Of a stretch of DNA of 64,000 bases, positions 11,594 through 20,203 are shown in pieces. Within the stretch, counting starts at the first letter, position 1. Every line of letters starts with the position of its first letter. Position numbers and translations under genes: made by a program. The notes below the pieces were generated by a model. It saw nothing but the letters and a program-made list of their open reading frames with translations, searched no databases and had not been told where the DNA came from. Origin of the DNA: Adlercreutzia caecimuris B7 (GTDB lineage: Bacteria; Actinomycetota; Coriobacteriia; Coriobacteriales; Eggerthellaceae); contig NZ_KE159646.1 in assembly GCF_000403355.2 (NCBI RefSeq), positions 514,424 through 578,423 on the forward strand. Direction: 5' to 3'.

Positions 11594-14338
<2,745 letters not shown>

Positions 14339-14344
14339 GTTGGT

Positions 14345-14380
14345 CCGTTCGCCCTGACGGGACGAACGGGAGCTTTGTTT
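14345..14380 (+). terminator. Palindromic hairpin directly after infB (two-copy element)
   Basis: CCGTTCG-CCC, a short loop, then GGG-A-CGAACGG, followed by GAGCTTTGTTT. Its stem is nearly identical to a hairpin at 58077-58100, which also lies a few bases after a stop codon. Confidence 0.6.
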
Positions 14381-14430
14381 GCGCTGATCGGCTAGGTAAC
14401 AGCATGGGATGTCTGGAAGAAGGGCCGATG

Positions 14431-14474
14431 AAGACCCTCCTGCTGAGTTGCAGGAGGGTCTTCTCTTTCCTTTA
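14431..14474 (+). terminator. Strong terminator after infB
   Basis: A perfect 13-bp stem (AAGACCCTCCTGC) with loop TGAGTT, followed by CTCTTTCCTTT. It closes the rimP-infB operon and insulates the accessory cassette downstream. Confidence 0.8.
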
Positions 14475-14809
14475 GGTGTTTTGACATATTCTATTATGGT
14501 GTTTTATGTCCCCTAGCCGCCGCCAGGAGGGCGGCTCTGCACGAAGCGGTCTCAGGGACTGTCACAAAATGCCGCGATACGATCCTCGCTCTATTTCCTG
14601 CGAGATAATCTGTGGAGAGGCCTGCAAGAGAATTGACAGGAAGCGATGAGATAAGATTACAAGCGTTCTGCGAGAATAATCAAAATCGCAGCGATGAGGA
14701 CACGACGTTCAAACAAGAATCGTCAATCAACGAATCAAGGGTGTTTTCCCTGATAGAGTTTGGATTGCAATCGATTGCAGCTTTAAAAAAACAAATTTGG
14801 AGGTGCAAT
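14475..14809 (+). other. Upstream region of the secreted-protein/ABC cassette
   Basis: A 335-base gap of lower GC than the core operons. It contains TTGACA at 14634-14639 without a convincing -10 at the right distance, and a perfect 14-bp palindrome just before the first gene. It lacks a credible gene: the frame of the secreted protein stays open back to 14612, but no ribosome site supports an earlier start. Confidence 0.45.
14766..14779. promoter_or_regulatory. Perfect palindrome (candidate operator)
   Basis: TGCAATCGATTGCA reads the same on both strands and lies 31 bases upstream of the ATG of the secreted protein, next to an A-tract and the GGAGG ribosome site. It may be a regulator site for the cassette; no regulator gene is adjacent. 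Confidence 0.4.
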
Positions 14810-15310
14810 ATGAAAGCATCATCATCCGCCTCGCAGCTCACTTTTCAGCAAAAGGCTGCTGCGTTGATCATTGTCGGTCTCCTATCCTTGTTCTCCGTTC
14901 TAGCGTTCGCTCCGCAAGCCCACGCCGACGATCTGGATACGGGCTATATGTTCTATCTGAAGAGCAAGGGAGCGACCGACGGAACCGGCTGGAGGCATAA
15001 GGGCGCCGAGGGCAGCGCTTACATTCATATCATGGAGCATCGCGGAGATCATTGCCGCCTGTACATTGATGGCGCTCTGGACCGAGAGGGTCGCGGCGCC
15101 AAGAACTGCATGGTCGGCGAGGCCTGGGCTGACCGCGATGGTCAATACCGCATCCACAACACGGTTCGCGATGCGCACATGGGCAACGCAGACTATCACT
15201 ATGCACGCCTGACTGCCTGGGCGCCTTACGGTGAAGGAAGCACCAACGGCGTTTGGAGTCCTGATTGCAGCAAGAAGGCCGAAAAACTGCCCATACTTAA
15301 TATCGAGTAG
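14810..15310 (+). CDS. Small secreted protein heading an ABC transporter cassette
   Basis: A 166-residue protein with a Sec signal peptide (hydrophobic core about residues 16-34, likely cleavage after AHA39), giving a mature form of about 127 residues. It is rich in Gly, His, Tyr and Trp, with three Cys (in DHCRL, KNCMV and PDCSK). ATG at 14810 is chosen for its TTTGGAGG site and the signal peptide. The mature start DTGYMFYLKSKG and the C-terminal GVWSPDC recall small secreted proteins (DUF2712-like) found next to ABC exporters in Firmicutes; this is recall, not a search result. A terminator follows, then two ABC-2 permeases and an ATPase. It may be a bacteriocin, a signal, or a shed surface protein; the function is unproven. 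Confidence 0.75.
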   Translation: MKASSSASQLTFQQKAAALIIVGLLSLFSVLAFAPQAHADDLDTGYMFYLKSKGATDGTGWRHKGAEGSAYIHIMEHRGDHCRLYIDGALDREGRGAKNCMVGEAWADRDGQYRIHNTVRDAHMGNADYHYARLTAWAPYGEGSTNGVWSPDCSKKAEKLPILNIE

Positions 15311-15321
15311 TACCTTGTTGT

Positions 15322-15361
15322 AAAGGCCTCTCGCTGCAAGCCAGTAGCGAGAGGCCTTTTC
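15322..15361 (+). terminator. Terminator between the secreted protein and the ABC genes
   Basis: A perfect 14-bp stem (AAAGGCCTCTCGCT) with a 10-base loop and a T-run. It would make the secreted protein the main product of the first promoter, with read-through or a second promoter needed for the ABC genes. Confidence 0.85.
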
Positions 15362-15490
15362 CAGACAAATGCGCAGTTGCCGTTCTCGGTTCAGTTTAAC
15401 AACAAGTTGCTCATCAGGGCATCCGTGGCAGAACGCAGGGCTAGCATCTAACGAAGTAGGAGAACCACATCCAAGCTGAGAGGAGGCCTT

Positions 15491-16351
15491 ATGCGCCGTA
15501 TGTTGGCACTCGAACTACGAGAGGCCTTTTCCAATAGGTGGTTCACCATCGCCGTGCTCGCAGCCGTTCTTCTCGCAGCTCTCGCAGCTGGAGAGTCGGT
15601 TGAGAAATTCAACACAAACGGCTTCGACGCCTCCGATTCCAGTTACTACGCCTACTACTCAAGCTGGAGCAGCGTTTCCGTATGGTTGGGGGTGGGCGCA
15701 TGGGGACGGTCGAGCCTGTATTATCTCTTCTTCTACGGCATCATCTTTGTAGCGCCCTTGGCATATAGCTGGTCAAGTTCGACCGATATAAGAAGCGGCT
15801 ACGCGCGTCAGCTGGCCGTACGCAGCACCAAGAAATACTATCTCTTCAGCAAGCTCTTCGCATGCTTCTCGGCGTCGTTTGTCGTGGCAGCCTGCGGGCT
15901 TCTGGCAAACCTGCTGTTCGTCTCTTTGTTCTTTCCAGCTTACCCTCCCTTCTCCTACGACAGCCTCTACACTGGCATGACGTACGGCAAGGTCCTCGCC
16001 GATCTGTACTATGCTAACCCCATCCTATTCATCGCCGTACGCACCCTTTTCGATTCGTGTGTCTGCGGCGCCTGGGCAGCCTTCGTTGCTAGCATAGGGT
16101 GGTTTTCCCGACACGTCGCACTGAACTATATTGCGTCCTATCTAGGACTCCTTGGGTTGGAGTTTCTCAACCATTATTTCTTTGCCGCCATTACCACTGC
16201 GCCGATCTTTGAGTTCAGTGTTTTTCAGATCATTCAAAGCTGGAGTTTCGAATATGCCCACGAACCTCTCGTTTCCCTTGTCGTCCTTGCGATTTTGGCG
16301 CTAGGCTCAGTCCTGCTCACCCTCGTTAAATGCAGGAGGGATCTCCTGTGA
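15491..16351 (+). CDS. ABC-2-type permease subunit (first)
   Basis: A 286-residue integral membrane protein with about six hydrophobic segments: residues 17-35, a large extracellular loop rich in Ser/Tyr, then roughly 80-100, 125-155, 175-200, 210-235 and 255-280. The short cytoplasmic N-terminus MRRMLALELREAF is typical of ABC-2 permeases. GGAGG lies 6 bases before the ATG. Its stop overlaps the start of the next gene, so the two permeases are probably made together. It most likely forms half the membrane channel powered by the ATPase at 17189. The layout of two small permeases plus an ATPase resembles LanFEG-type immunity transporters. Confidence 0.8.
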   Translation: MRRMLALELREAFSNRWFTIAVLAAVLLAALAAGESVEKFNTNGFDASDSSYYAYYSSWSSVSVWLGVGAWGRSSLYYLFFYGIIFVAPLAYSWSSSTDIRSGYARQLAVRSTKKYYLFSKLFACFSASFVVAACGLLANLLFVSLFFPAYPPFSYDSLYTGMTYGKVLADLYYANPILFIAVRTLFDSCVCGAWAAFVASIGWFSRHVALNYIASYLGLLGLEFLNHYFFAAITTAPIFEFSVFQIIQSWSFEYAHEPLVSLVVLAILALGSVLLTLVKCRRDLL

Positions 16352-17196
16352 AAAGACTGGTACAATGCCTACGCTTCGATATGCTGGCGGGGCACCGTTT
16401 CCTCTTGGCTTCTGGGTTGCTGGGATGTTTAATGGCTGCATTCTTTCTGACGGGCTCCTGGGTCAGGGCTTCGGCATATCATGTGGAATGGTCCTCGTTC
16501 ACGCTAGGTGACAACGCGCTGCTGCTTCTAGGTGGCACTCTGCCCCCGGCGGCATCCGATCAGACCCCCACATTGTTCCCGATTGGCTGGCTCTTGCTGT
16601 TTGTGAGCTCCATGGCCGCCCCCGTTCTCTATGCGGGAAGGTCCAGCAGAGGCAGTTTTGCGGCCAATGCGATTATTAGAGGCGGCGCACGGGCACCGTG
16701 GCTCATCGCCAAATGTCTGTGGTCCATTATTGCCTCGCTTGTCTTTTGGCTCGCATTCTTTACTGTCTTGTCCGGGCTCACCTTGTGTGTATCGGGGGAT
16801 CTGTCGCCCCTGGCATCCAGATCCATAGAGGTGATCGGCCTCGCTCGCAACGACGATTTGACTCAGGGACCCTATGCTCTCGGAGCTTTTCTGTTGATCG
16901 CACCTGCCGTAAGCACCCTTCTTCTTGTACCGCTCGTCCTTCTCGGCATCCTGGCTAACGAGCTCCTTGCCTTTCTCGTTGGCATCGGCTGCCTCCTTGC
17001 ATCCGTGATGTCGATAACGGGCTTTGTTCCCGGTGAGTATCTTATGGCAACGAGGACGAACTCCTTCCTTGCGCATGGCATAGCCCCTGTGCAGGCTCTT
17101 GTTTATTCACTAACTCTTAGTATTGTCAGTTTGCTCATTGGCACGATAGTGTTCCGCGGCAAAAACCTTATGGGAAGGAGTGAGACCCATGATTGA
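16348..17196 (+). CDS. ABC-2-type permease subunit (second)
   Basis: A 282-residue membrane protein with about six hydrophobic segments. GTG at 16348 is preferred because GGAGGG lies 7 bases before it and it overlaps the previous TGA; an in-frame ATG at 16330 has no ribosome site. The N-terminal KRLVQCLRFDMLAGHRF resembles the cytoplasmic lead-in of other ABC-2 permeases. It differs in sequence from the first permease, suggesting a heterodimeric channel. It overlaps the ATPase gene by 8 bases. The A/T content of this block is visibly higher than in infB or truB, a sign of separate origin. Confidence 0.78.
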   Translation: MKRLVQCLRFDMLAGHRFLLASGLLGCLMAAFFLTGSWVRASAYHVEWSSFTLGDNALLLLGGTLPPAASDQTPTLFPIGWLLLFVSSMAAPVLYAGRSSRGSFAANAIIRGGARAPWLIAKCLWSIIASLVFWLAFFTVLSGLTLCVSGDLSPLASRSIEVIGLARNDDLTQGPYALGAFLLIAPAVSTLLLVPLVLLGILANELLAFLVGIGCLLASVMSITGFVPGEYLMATRTNSFLAHGIAPVQALVYSLTLSIVSLLIGTIVFRGKNLMGRSETHD

Positions 17197-17881
17197 GCTG
17201 CTCAATGTTTGCAAGTTCATTAAGAGTCGCGAGGTCCTGCGCGATGTCTCCCTTTCGATCGAATCTGGCGAGGTCGTCGGCATCAAAGGCGCCAACGGCT
17301 CGGGAAAAACCATGCTTCTTCGCTCCATAGCCGGGCTGATCTACCCTACGTCGGGGAGCGTTATCGTCGACGGGGTAAATCTCAGGGAATCCGCTGCGTT
17401 TCCCCCAAGTATCGGCCTTCTCATCGAGAACCCGTCTTTTTTACCTCACCTCACTGGCCTGAAAAACTGCGAACTTCTCGCCTCGATCAAAGACGTTGTG
17501 ACAAATAAGCAAATTTCTCAGTGCCTCATGGACGTGGGTCTTGATCCTCAGGATACCCGTACGTTCAATAAGTACTCTCTCGGGATGAAGCAGCGCCTCG
17601 GACTAGCGGCTGCATTCATGGAACAGCCCCACGTTGTCCTACTGGACGAGCCCACCAATGCCCTCGACGAGGAGGGCATCGAGCTGCTATCTTCTCTCGT
17701 GCGCAAAAGCCGAGAACGTGGCGCCTGTATCGCCATCGCTTCCCACGACGCTCTTGTACTGGAGACCATAGCCGACAAGATATACCTTATGAAAGAGGGT
17801 GCACTGCAGCCCGCATCGTCCACCGCCATCCCTCCAGTCGATCAGCAATGCGCAGGCACGCAAGCAGAGGAGGCGGCTTAG
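17189..17881 (+). CDS. ABC transporter ATP-binding protein
   Basis: A 230-residue nucleotide-binding domain that would drive the two permeases. Walker A GANGSGKTM (about 34-42), the signature YSLGMKQRLGLAAAF (about 131), Walker B VVLLDEPTNALDE (about 150) and the switch His (IASHDAL) are all present, so it should be an active ATPase. The ATG at 17189 has GGGAAGGAG 8 bases upstream. It belongs to the group of ABC ATPases found in antibiotic-peptide immunity, sodium export and lantibiotic systems. The next gene starts directly after its stop. Confidence 0.93.
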   Translation: MIELLNVCKFIKSREVLRDVSLSIESGEVVGIKGANGSGKTMLLRSIAGLIYPTSGSVIVDGVNLRESAAFPPSIGLLIENPSFLPHLTGLKNCELLASIKDVVTNKQISQCLMDVGLDPQDTRTFNKYSLGMKQRLGLAAAFMEQPHVVLLDEPTNALDEEGIELLSSLVRKSRERGACIAIASHDALVLETIADKIYLMKEGALQPASSTAIPPVDQQCAGTQAEEAA

Positions 17882-18556
17882 ATGACCAGATCGAGAAACT
17901 TCAAGTTCGCCGCTATCGTCGTCTTGGCAGCTGCCCTAATCATTGCCGCTTTCGTTCGGGTTGCCTTGGTCAATCAATATGTAACTCAAACACTCGTGGA
18001 GTCTTACCCTGAAGGCACATGGGTCACCTACGACGGTGCTTACGCAGGAGTCGCCAGCGAAAACACGGACGGTCTCTCCATACGAGTCGACAGCGCCTCG
18101 CTCGTATCCCCCCGACAATTCATTGACTCCTACGCCTCATCCCAAGTGAATCTCACCGAAAACGTAATTGGGAAATATGCCGACATCACGCCAGCCACTG
18201 CGGACACGCCCTCCGTCCTTGCCGTGAAAATCTCTCTACGCCGGTCGCCCACCAACGTAGATGGTCAATTCTCGGCTATCGACTGGCGCATTATTAGCTT
18301 GCAAAGCCCTAGTCTTTCCATGCAGCCAGATTGGGACCTGTGGGAATTGGCCGATACCCACATGATAGACCAATCCGCTTTTAGTATTCAGGAAGGAAGT
18401 GAGTATGCGACTGTCGTGCCCTTCAGTATTCAGTCCCAGGGGGAATACTTCGATCCTTCTCCCCTCAGAACCCGGCTCCCGCTGGAGCAGGGAGATTACG
18501 AATTCGTCGTGACCAATTCCCCCGTTCGTAAACTTATCACCTTTGCGACACATTAG
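17882..18556 (+). CDS. Membrane-anchored extracellular protein of the ABC cassette
   Basis: A 224-residue protein with one N-terminal membrane helix (about residues 9-28) and a predicted beta-rich external domain. It is not recognised with confidence. The segment SENTDGLSIRVDSASLVSP resembles external proteins (DUF5028-like) coded beside ABC exporters in Firmicutes, from memory only. Its ATG follows the ATPase stop with no gap, implying co-translation. It could assist substrate capture or immunity at the cell surface. Confidence 0.7.
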   Translation: MTRSRNFKFAAIVVLAAALIIAAFVRVALVNQYVTQTLVESYPEGTWVTYDGAYAGVASENTDGLSIRVDSASLVSPRQFIDSYASSQVNLTENVIGKYADITPATADTPSVLAVKISLRRSPTNVDGQFSAIDWRIISLQSPSLSMQPDWDLWELADTHMIDQSAFSIQEGSEYATVVPFSIQSQGEYFDPSPLRTRLPLEQGDYEFVVTNSPVRKLITFATH

Positions 18557-18587
18557 AAAGCACGCTCTCAAGAGAAAGGGATCCATC

Positions 18588-19325
18588 ATGAAAACTACTA
18601 CCGCAAAACCTCTCGCTATGGCGCTTCTTCTGGCCATAACGATCGGCGCCCTCGCTGTCGTATCTGGCTGCGCGAACGAGGCGGCGACCTCCGCGTCAGC
18701 AGACTCCGATGTGGAGCAGTCCTCAGCAACAACCCAAGCCGATGGAGAGGATTCTTCCAGTGCCACTGTCCCTGGAAGTAGCATGAGCGACACTCTTACC
18801 CTCAGCTCCGATACTTATCAAAATCTCGGCTGGAGGGGGACGCTTGAGGCTCGCATCGAATCTGCCCAGCTCTACAAGAATTACGATGCCGCCAAGAAGA
18901 AGATTGCCGACTTGTTTCCCGCTGAAGACGCCGTCAAGGACGGCCCGGTGCTTGTCTGCGAAGTCTTTCTCGACAACTCAGGAGCGGTGAGCCAGGAGCA
19001 GAGCGGAGCCTTTAAGGCAGACTTCATGTTCCTCGGCCCCGACCGCATCCCTGTCACGTTCTTCGCTCTCTCGGAGAAGGGTAATGCGACCTCCCGCAGC
19101 GACGACGCTTCCATGGAATTCGAGCTCCCCGACAAGGGATCCACCACTATCACCGTTGGCTTCTCTGTACCCCAAACCTGGCTCGATGGGAGCGTGGATA
19201 TCAACAACCGCGACTACATCGCCTTTGGCGGTACGAAAGAGCAGTATCACATGAGCTACGCCGGCGAAGTCCCCGACAATGACTTCATCTGGCTGACCAC
19301 GGAAGTATTCAAAGAGACGAAGTAG
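18588..19325 (+). CDS. Lipoprotein of the ABC cassette
   Basis: A 245-residue lipoprotein with the lipobox VVSGC (Cys at about residue 27), then a Ser/Ala/Thr/Asp linker to about residue 65 and a beta-rich domain. The ATG at 18588 has AGAAAGGGA upstream; the frame opens earlier but without a ribosome site. Surface lipoproteins beside peptide ABC transporters often bind the peptide for immunity, as LanI proteins do; that role is an inference. It is the last gene of the cassette, 31 bases after the preceding gene, and a strong terminator follows. Confidence 0.75.
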   Translation: MKTTTAKPLAMALLLAITIGALAVVSGCANEAATSASADSDVEQSSATTQADGEDSSSATVPGSSMSDTLTLSSDTYQNLGWRGTLEARIESAQLYKNYDAAKKKIADLFPAEDAVKDGPVLVCEVFLDNSGAVSQEQSGAFKADFMFLGPDRIPVTFFALSEKGNATSRSDDASMEFELPDKGSTTITVGFSVPQTWLDGSVDINNRDYIAFGGTKEQYHMSYAGEVPDNDFIWLTTEVFKETK

Positions 19326-19359
19326 TCAAGCAGAGATCGCTCACTGGTCCCGAACTTGG

Positions 19360-19399
19360 AGCGCCGCGACGACTAGGCTCGTCGCGGCGCTTTGCATTT
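19360..19399 (+). terminator. Terminator closing the ABC cassette
   Basis: A perfect 13-bp stem (AGCGCCGCGACGA) with loop CTAGGC, then a short TTTGCATTTG tail. Confidence 0.75.
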
Positions 19400-19813
19400 G
19401 CGAGAGGTCTTACCGCAACGCTCGGAGCTGTTTACGGACCCCGCAGCTCGGCTATGCGTTCTCAATCATCGTTTCTCGTCTTTTAAGTGTAACTTTTCGG
19501 GATAGATGAGGGCGAGTTCACTGCGCAGGAGGCAGAACTCGTGTGTGGTGGAGGATGCTTCCGGTTGGTAGTTTCAAGCATGATTGTTTCCTTTGGGTGA
19601 TCGATACGGCGCCTTTGACCTCTTCTTCGTGTGAAAGCATTGGAAGAGCGATCCGTTTTCTATACAATTTCAGGCACCTATCGGACTCTCGCTGACCTCC
19701 TTGGGCGAACCTGGGAGTTCCGTTTTGATGACGTAATTCCAATAAGGAAGAACGGGGCTTTTCTTTCCCTATACTGAGATCATCTATCCGTCTCGATGTG
19801 AGGAGATGGCGTT
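19400..19813 (+). other. Gene-free gap before rbfA
   Basis: About 410 bases with no credible gene on either strand and intermediate GC. It holds the candidate rbfA promoter and a second isolated TATACT (19770-19775) close to rbfA. It probably marks the right-hand junction of the inserted cassette. Confidence 0.5.
19640..19668 (+). promoter_or_regulatory. Candidate promoter of rbfA-nrnA-truB-ribF
   Basis: TTGGAA (19640-19645) and TACAAT (19663-19668) with a 17-base spacer, 146 bases before rbfA. A dedicated promoter would be needed because terminators separate rbfA from infB. Confidence 0.5.
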
Positions 19814-20203
19814 ATGAAGCAGAGTGCTTCCAACCGCAAGGTTAACGAGCAGGCCCGCGAGGTCATCGCGAGCATCCTTTTGTTCGACGTGTCCGATCCT
19901 CGGCTGCATCTAGTGACCATCACCGGCTGCGAGGTCAGCTACGACCGCTCGGCCTGCAACGTGTACTACACCACCGACCCCGAGCGCTACGGCGACGTGC
20001 AGGCCGCCTTCGAGCAGGCCGCCGGGCATATCCGCTCGCTCATGGCCAAGAAGCTCTCCTGGCGCGTGGCGCCGGAGCTGCGCTTCCATCTGGACAAGTC
20101 GGTGGACCAAGCTGAGGCTATCGGGGCGGCCCTGGCCTCCGAGCGCGAGCACCAGCAGCAGCGCATCGTGGAGGAGACCATCGGCGAGGATGGGGAGTTC
20201 TAG
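19814..20203 (+). CDS. rbfA: 30S ribosome-binding factor RbfA
   Basis: A 129-residue cold-shock and 16S rRNA-processing factor with a type II KH fold. Family features are clear: RKVNEQAREVIASIL at the start, DPRLHLVTITGCEVSYDRS with the conserved core strand, and APELRFHLDKSVDQA near the end. GAGGAG lies before the ATG. It normally follows infB directly; here 5.5 kb of other DNA separates them. Overlaps or abuts nrnA. Confidence 0.95.
   Translation: MKQSASNRKVNEQAREVIASILLFDVSDPRLHLVTITGCEVSYDRSACNVYYTTDPERYGDVQAAFEQAAGHIRSLMAKKLSWRVAPELRFHLDKSVDQAEAIGAALASEREHQQQRIVEETIGEDGEF

Follow-up and report, generated by a model that had tools for sequence, protein, structure and literature searches.

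The 64,000-nucleotide stretch of the Adlercreutzia caecimuris B7 genome analysed here (the window; contig NZ_KE159646.1) carries, between infB and rbfA, six genes for a secreted protein (P1), an ATP-binding cassette (ABC) transporter (P2, P3 and P4), an external protein (P5) and a lipoprotein (P6). We found this to be a real, conserved and patchily spread combination of a protein and a LanFEG-like system that recurs in two phyla and belongs to families that are catalogued but uncharacterised. The system is probably an antibacterial protein with its immunity. Stated in full, our interpretation is that the block encodes a Sec-secreted antibacterial (or at least self-acting) protein together with the ABC-plus-lipoprotein immunity of its producer, and we give this about an even chance of being correct.

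The open reading frame list and its translations place the block at 14810-19325, with all six genes on the + strand in the order P1-P2-P3-P4-P5-P6. Its features are as follows.

14810..15310, + strand: P1, a signal peptide and a 127-residue all-beta protein with G-V-W-S-P-D-C near its end (translation, model and family alignment)
15322..15359, + strand: hairpin after P1, a terminator or attenuator (fold of 15318-15372)
15491..16351, + strand: P2, first hydrophobic permease (translation; relatives in other cassettes)
16348..17196, + strand: P3, second hydrophobic permease, with a GTG start (translation; relatives in other cassettes)
17189..17881, + strand: P4, ABC ATPase with GLLIENPSFL at the Q-loop (translation, Pfam and NCBIfam scans)
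17882..18556, + strand: P5, external protein with one N-terminal membrane stretch (translation; hydrophobic-stretch scan)
18588..19325, + strand: P6, lipoprotein with a V-V-S-G-C lipobox read from the sequence (translation)
19358..19393, + strand: operon-end hairpin (fold of 19345-19402)

A preliminary description of this DNA had reported a six-gene block of low guanine-plus-cytosine (GC) content in this order, led by a secreted protein of about 127 mature residues with three cysteines. Both claims held: all six genes were confirmed, the GC content is 54.3% as against 66.3% and 67.2% in the flanks, and cleavage of the 166-residue P1 after Q-A-H-A leaves 127 residues with C82, C100 and C153. 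P2 and P3 overlap by 4 bases and P3 and P4 by 8, and P5 starts directly after the P4 stop codon.

P1 occurs with the transporter, and the transporter also without P1

A P1 profile matched 32 of 396 genomes of the class (30 of the 314 of good quality) and 23 of 299 genomes in the family of a Lachnospiraceae metagenome-assembled genome (MAG), that MAG counted. At the sensitivity used, two of the nine genomes of the window's genus had a P1 relative. Named matches included Collinsella stercoris, C. aerofaciens, Amphibacillus cookii, Bacillus niameyensis and Lederbergia, as well as Lachnospiraceae, Anaerococcus and one MAG labelled Bacteroides; this named-hit search gave 16 loci, seven on contigs already in the set and nine new. 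No relative was found in viral contigs with one alignment or in plasmids with one query.

We assembled 65 stretches (cited by L numbers): 36 covering all 37 places in the class, the nine new named loci, and 20 covering 22 of 27 places in the Lachnospiraceae family, where one more place was already included and four weak ones were left out. Genes were marked by profiles built from cassettes of both phyla. Two loci were left out, L084 (a weak 68-residue match with no P1 by profile) and L077 (a P1 fragment uncalled by profile). Copies were counted per contig, and the P1 proteins of Collinsella L061-L064, identical but from different genomes, were counted as four.

The preliminary description had considered that homologues of P1 might occur mostly without the ABC genes. 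P2 and P4 in fact lay on the same strand and within 7 kb beside 62 of the 70 P1 copies (64 of the 65 stretches), and P5 was near 56. Seven of the eight copies lacking the pair were 25 to 5427 bases from a downstream contig end. L015, L152 and the two P1 genes of L103 had no transporter gene, with the contig end 25-1715 bases away; both copies in L160 were followed by P2 and P3 and then the contig end; and in L167 the ATPase match was weak and probably unrelated, the contig ending 906 bases on. L081, with P2 and P5 without P4, was the sole exception away from a contig end.

Many Coriobacteriia had the order LuxR-P1-P6-P2-P3-P4-P5, Collinsella L061-L066 the same order minus P6, and Lachnospiraceae several orders. 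Because the orders differ, the association between P1 and the transporter is not just inherited gene order. P1 overlapped the next gene by 8 bases in L011 (9364-9371) and by 7 in L016 (9055-9061); in these two loci P1 and the following genes are probably translated together, whereas the window has a strong hairpin in between.

In the reverse direction, a P2 profile matched 49 of 392 class genomes at 1e-8, and we took the 20 better-scoring stretches that had no earlier P1 match, leaving out lower-scoring places. Four of them (L114, L116, L119 and L124) contained a gene resembling P1, or a piece of one, at E no worse than 0.01, and two of these remained at 1e-4; L132 resembled the other half of a cassette split by a contig end (L015). 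Sixteen transporter modules had no recognisable P1. Fifteen were in 14 reverse-search stretches (one each in L113, L115, L117, L118, L120-L123, L125, L126, L128, L130 and L131, and two in L129); the other was a second cassette in L068 (11627-16410), adjoining the first and consisting of a regulator, P6 and P2-P5. Fragmentary and broken P1 genes stood beside retained transporter genes in L082 (7998-8147) and L083 (8289-8759), respectively. In L127 (7663-7992), a short secreted reading frame occupied the P1 place beside kept transporter genes.

P1 is tied to the transporter, but the transporter can do without P1, which gives an immunity-like pattern. This asymmetry is what would be expected if P1 were costly without protection; a defence module with P1 as an optional partner would give the same pattern.

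The transporter resembles LanFEG

In the block, a single operon supplies the ATPase and two permeases that differ from each other, and P2-P3-P4 recur jointly in most cassettes. Pfam and NCBIfam, scanned to E 1, contained no family matching P2 or P3; of the two different ABC-2 permeases proposed in the preliminary description, two hydrophobic permeases therefore stand, and the label 'ABC-2' rests on layout and hydrophobicity. A hydropathy scan found four and five hydrophobic stretches in P2 and P3, respectively, figures that should not be read as numbers of helices.

The analysis supports the LanFEG-like arrangement proposed earlier, and also the type of the ATPase. The best NCBIfam model for P4 was TIGR03740 (lantibiotic protection ATPase) at 155.9 bits, short of the cut-off of 309.75, and this LanF-type model gave it a better score than the lactococcin 972 transporter model did. 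Most ABC ATPases have a glutamine in the Q-loop, and a glutamate there is a mark of LanF proteins. The position was glutamate in all 84 readable cassette ATPases of 87 examined (by pattern match, not alignment; three had no recognisable Walker A and seven loci were present twice), while 20 other ABC ATPases in the same loci gave six glutamines, two glutamates and 12 unreadable positions. The portions of papers returned by a literature search for this hallmark contained no mention of it.

Lactococcin 972 is a Sec-exported, unmodified, beta-rich bacteriocin with an ABC partner, and in this it resembles the P1 cassette. Membership of its family was rejected: P1 had no PF09683 match, and hhalign gave 0.5% and 0.1% (with only three family members).

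LanFEG/LanI systems share with the block one ATPase, two different permeases and a lipoprotein (PMC5786555, PMC4828448). They differ in that the protected product here would be a Sec-exported folded protein, and the ATPase reaches 156 bits against a cut-off of 310. Lantibiotic precursor, lanthionine and export genes had no match among the six block proteins, other frames in the interval being listed only. CprABC, in the excerpts seen, likewise combines an ATPase and two permeases with an adjacent lipoprotein gene in C. difficile and a regulator pair, and unlike the block it is stand-alone resistance, for which those excerpts describe no secreted partner protein (PMC5786555).

For the two external components of the window, Pfam and NCBIfam scans up to E 1 gave nothing for P5 and, for P6, weak matches below the cut-offs, with no NisI or SpaI model among them. 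Among relatives in the same places, three of four tested for P5 were above the DUF5028 (PF16431) cut-off and two of four tested for P6 above that of DUF5027 (PF16430). The P6 structure model (predicted local distance difference test, pLDDT, 51) was too poor for comparison or use. Our literature search found no paper on DUF2712, DUF5027 or DUF5028, and none combining DUF2705 with lantibiotic.

P1 is predicted to be a beta-sandwich protein

Scans of P1 against Pfam and NCBIfam, with E as high as 1 allowed, found no match. We modelled the protein with AlphaFold2 from 16 alignment rows, all from the window or the named-hit search loci. Block means were 75-96 pLDDT over residues 41-150, with 73 residues at 90 or more, and the model has seven strands, the last one running into W-S-P-D. 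In 29 aligned P1 relatives, the S, P and D of the C-terminal G-x-W-S-P-D were invariant and the G and W nearly so, and the proteins of L078-L081 and L104 terminate just past this motif. Cys 100 and Cys 153 occurred together in eight of the 29 rows and alone in three and two, respectively, which is suggestive of a possible disulfide between them.

The structures nearest the model were PirA, CBM29, GOLD and Eph ligand-binding domains at Z about 7, which we take to be jelly-roll or similar beta-sandwich folds, as well as CBM86; PirA was the sole Foldseek match under 0.001. Likeness at this Z indicates no more than a common arrangement, and we draw no function from it.

The P1 family connects to DUF2712 and the Bacillus yybN operon

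The window P1 itself did not match DUF2712 (PF10916). The P1 of L100 (Lachnospiraceae) passed the PF10916 cut-off (8.2e-5, 23.7 bits against 22), the L098 and L099 proteins fell below it, and L102 and L104 had no match. With hhalign, a 12-row P1 set (nine Bacillota-side, three Coriobacteriia) aligned to PF10916 at 92.7% probability (E 4e-7) and the Coriobacteriia P1 set at 67.2% (E 5e-5). As judged from these profiles, the wider P1 family is homologous to DUF2712 via intermediates. The proposal that P1 might be a new class of secreted antimicrobial was therefore partly wrong, since P1 connects to a catalogued, uncharacterised family; the antimicrobial role is still our preferred interpretation, and the earlier one is, overall, partly supported.

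DUF2712 occurred in eight of 249 genomes of the B. niameyensis order, with a LanF-type ATPase alongside in all eight loci and a P2-like permease match in seven. Like the block, these Bacillus operons have a secreted protein of similar length with a G-x-W edge end and an adjoining LanF-type ATPase. They differ in the C-terminus of that protein (G-x-W-D-E-E, not G-x-W-S-P-D), in often having three permease-like genes (by eye), and in being unmatched by the P5 and P6 profiles. In L185 (4563-14981), the reading frames on either side of the DUF2712 gene and its ABC genes look by eye like large transposases of Tn3 type and a resolvase; a transposon may therefore carry this branch.

B. subtilis gave the sole DUF2712 match among 14 control genomes, a protein that we take to be YybN. 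The yybN operon is described as AT-rich, bound by Rok and of unknown function, and horizontal acquisition has been proposed for it (PMC11841835, PMC2978689); the Rok target list that includes it also has sun, sbo-alb, sdp, comK, rok and others (PMC2978689, PMC11841835). YybJKL is listed as an ABC exporter of unknown function (PMC11466899).

Duplications, regulators and movement

P1 was duplicated in several loci. Three P1-P6 pairs precede one transporter in L099 (Bacillus niameyensis), the first of these P1 genes lacking the bulk of its signal sequence; in L165, P1 and P6 alternate, with two genes of each; and P1 is repeated, alone or with another gene, in L067, L103 and L160. These arrangements suggest that P1 and the lipoprotein P6 form a unit where P6 is present.

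LuxR-type regulators were near P1 in 24 of 37 Coriobacteriia-side loci and none of 27 Bacillota-side loci, and AgrB, GHKL kinase or LytTR genes in eight of 27 Bacillota-side stretches. The agr-type families were confirmed by Pfam for L099 and L100, and the AgrB profile was built on one sequence. In L100 (4863-7697), from a Lachnospiraceae MAG, AgrB, a GHKL kinase and a LytTR regulator adjoin P1 and constitute an agr-type quorum unit. A same-family genome (L013, 6463-7298) has a DUF2975 membrane protein and an HTH_26 regulator in place of the upstream LuxR-type regulator.

The ATPase tree mixes host families, with 13 label changes against a minimum of 4 and a shuffled mean of 28. L080, from the Collinsella family, was placed among Bacillota on a well-supported but long branch, and the bootstrap had not settled. 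The tree would fit a history of descent with horizontal spread added to it.

The block is an addition between infB and rbfA

The infB-rbfA interval is 5475 bases in the window and 107-328 bases in all eight other same-genus genomes, so the block is an addition at this place. The possibility that it is a core block of all relatives was rejected, as none of the eight has it there. The short gap itself varies in length (107-328 bases, L018-L025), making this a variable spot even without the cassette. The two flanks shared no repeats at E up to 1, and the right flank had one 20-base match to one of the eight empty sites. Two further cassette copies lie elsewhere in the host genome: copy two has all six genes and a P1 66% identical to that of the window, and copy three is more distant, with an 877-residue LuxR-type membrane regulator upstream.

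The two terminators of the preliminary description stood as strongly folding hairpins (3' of P1, -31.2 kcal/mol, z -8.5, 0 of 200 shuffles as low; 3' of P6, -30.0 kcal/mol, z -3.4, 1 of 200), but a consensus terminator scan listed neither, finding five against 5.2 in shuffles, no excess. The promoter and terminator scan performed no better than shuffles overall, and an Rfam scan of 14300-19900 gave no match. A PADLOC query with P1, P2, P3, P5 and P6 (P4 being outside the set) returned three weak end-of-protein matches for P3 and none for the other four, a result that does not support a known anti-phage system.

Weighing the interpretations

Under the interpretation that the block encodes an antibacterial protein with its immunity, P1 would be exported by the Sec route, lose its signal peptide and fold into a beta-sandwich, whose G-x-W-S-P-D edge probably helps to bind a conserved surface target on competing Gram-positive cells. 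The lipoprotein P6 and the membrane-anchored P5 would intercept P1 outside the producer's membrane, and a transporter of P2, P3 and two P4 would remove it, as LanI and LanFEG do for lantibiotics. The linkage of P1 to the transporter, the P1-P6 duplications, the glutamate Q-loop, the TIGR03740 match and the agr-type neighbours of some copies argue for this. The patchy, lower-GC and mixed-tree distribution would be consistent with it, as would a Rok list shared with sun, sbo-alb and sdp.

Several observations weigh against this interpretation. P1 had no sequence relative of known function in the searches made here. It is the best kept of the six proteins between the host's two nearest copies (66% against 44-57%), and across 24 loci it is not the best conserved (P1 0.29, P2 0.29, P4 0.48, P6 0.19); neither of these sequence comparisons resembles a fast arms race of P1. 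P6 is near 39 of the 70 P1 copies and missing near 31, those of Collinsella L061-L066 included, and its coupling to P1 is not special (partial correlation 0.46, against 0.47 and 0.50 for P1 with the permeases). A LuxR-type regulator and P6 persist in several modules that lack P1, and the module may thus serve a purpose independent of P1. No agr-type genes occur in 19 of the 27 Bacillota-side stretches or in any of the 38 others. GC is lower in all eight Coriobacteriia-side cassettes measured, which may reflect constraint and not recent arrival. Conservation, the P6 gaps, the lack of a relative of known function and the P1-less modules keep two rival explanations alive, one of defence and one of envelope or glycan binding.

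In the first, which we consider unlikely, the ABC module with P5 and P6 would resist foreign membrane-active peptides made by others, and P1 would be secreted to capture these peptides as a decoy or sensor rather than as a weapon. Modules lacking P1 are common, several with their regulator kept, the layout is as close to CprABC resistance operons as to LanFEG immunity (PMC5786555), and P1 is well conserved between the two nearest host paralogues. Against it, P1 turned up without transporter genes only near contig ends, the agr-type regulators next to some copies are more in keeping with production than with sensing, and tandem P1-lipoprotein pairs are not obviously expected of such a system.

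In the second, which we regard as quite unlikely, P1 would be lectin-like and act on the producer's wall or on host glycans, with the ABC complex remodelling or signalling at the membrane. The carbohydrate-binding modules CBM29 and CBM86 and PirA are among the nearest structures, but Z about 7 marks a common arrangement at most, and presence in 32 of 396 class genomes and 23 of 299 Lachnospiraceae-family genomes suits an accessory trait. That P1 is a secreted signal, with the ABC complex and external proteins as export aid or receptor, is very unlikely: the LuxR-type and agr-type regulators near many copies favour it, but the regulator type changes between phyla while the P1-transporter pairing holds, the window copy and host copy two have no such regulator adjoining, and a folded 127-residue protein is large for such a signal.

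Implications

Beyond the window, we tentatively propose, at somewhat less than an even chance, a widespread undescribed class of Sec-secreted, unmodified beta-sandwich antibacterials with a G-x-W-S-P-D edge. Each would be guarded by a glutamate-loop ABC transporter and DUF5028/DUF5027 surface proteins, and the class would have spread between Actinomycetota and Bacillota, with Bacillus DUF2712 (YybN) as a side branch. If this is true, DUF2712, DUF5027, DUF5028 and the B. subtilis yybN operon would join in one testable competition system, present in Coriobacteriia such as Collinsella and in Lachnospiraceae. LanFEG-type immunity could then also guard folded, Sec-exported proteins, and B. subtilis would offer a simple test for an operon whose function is unknown in print.

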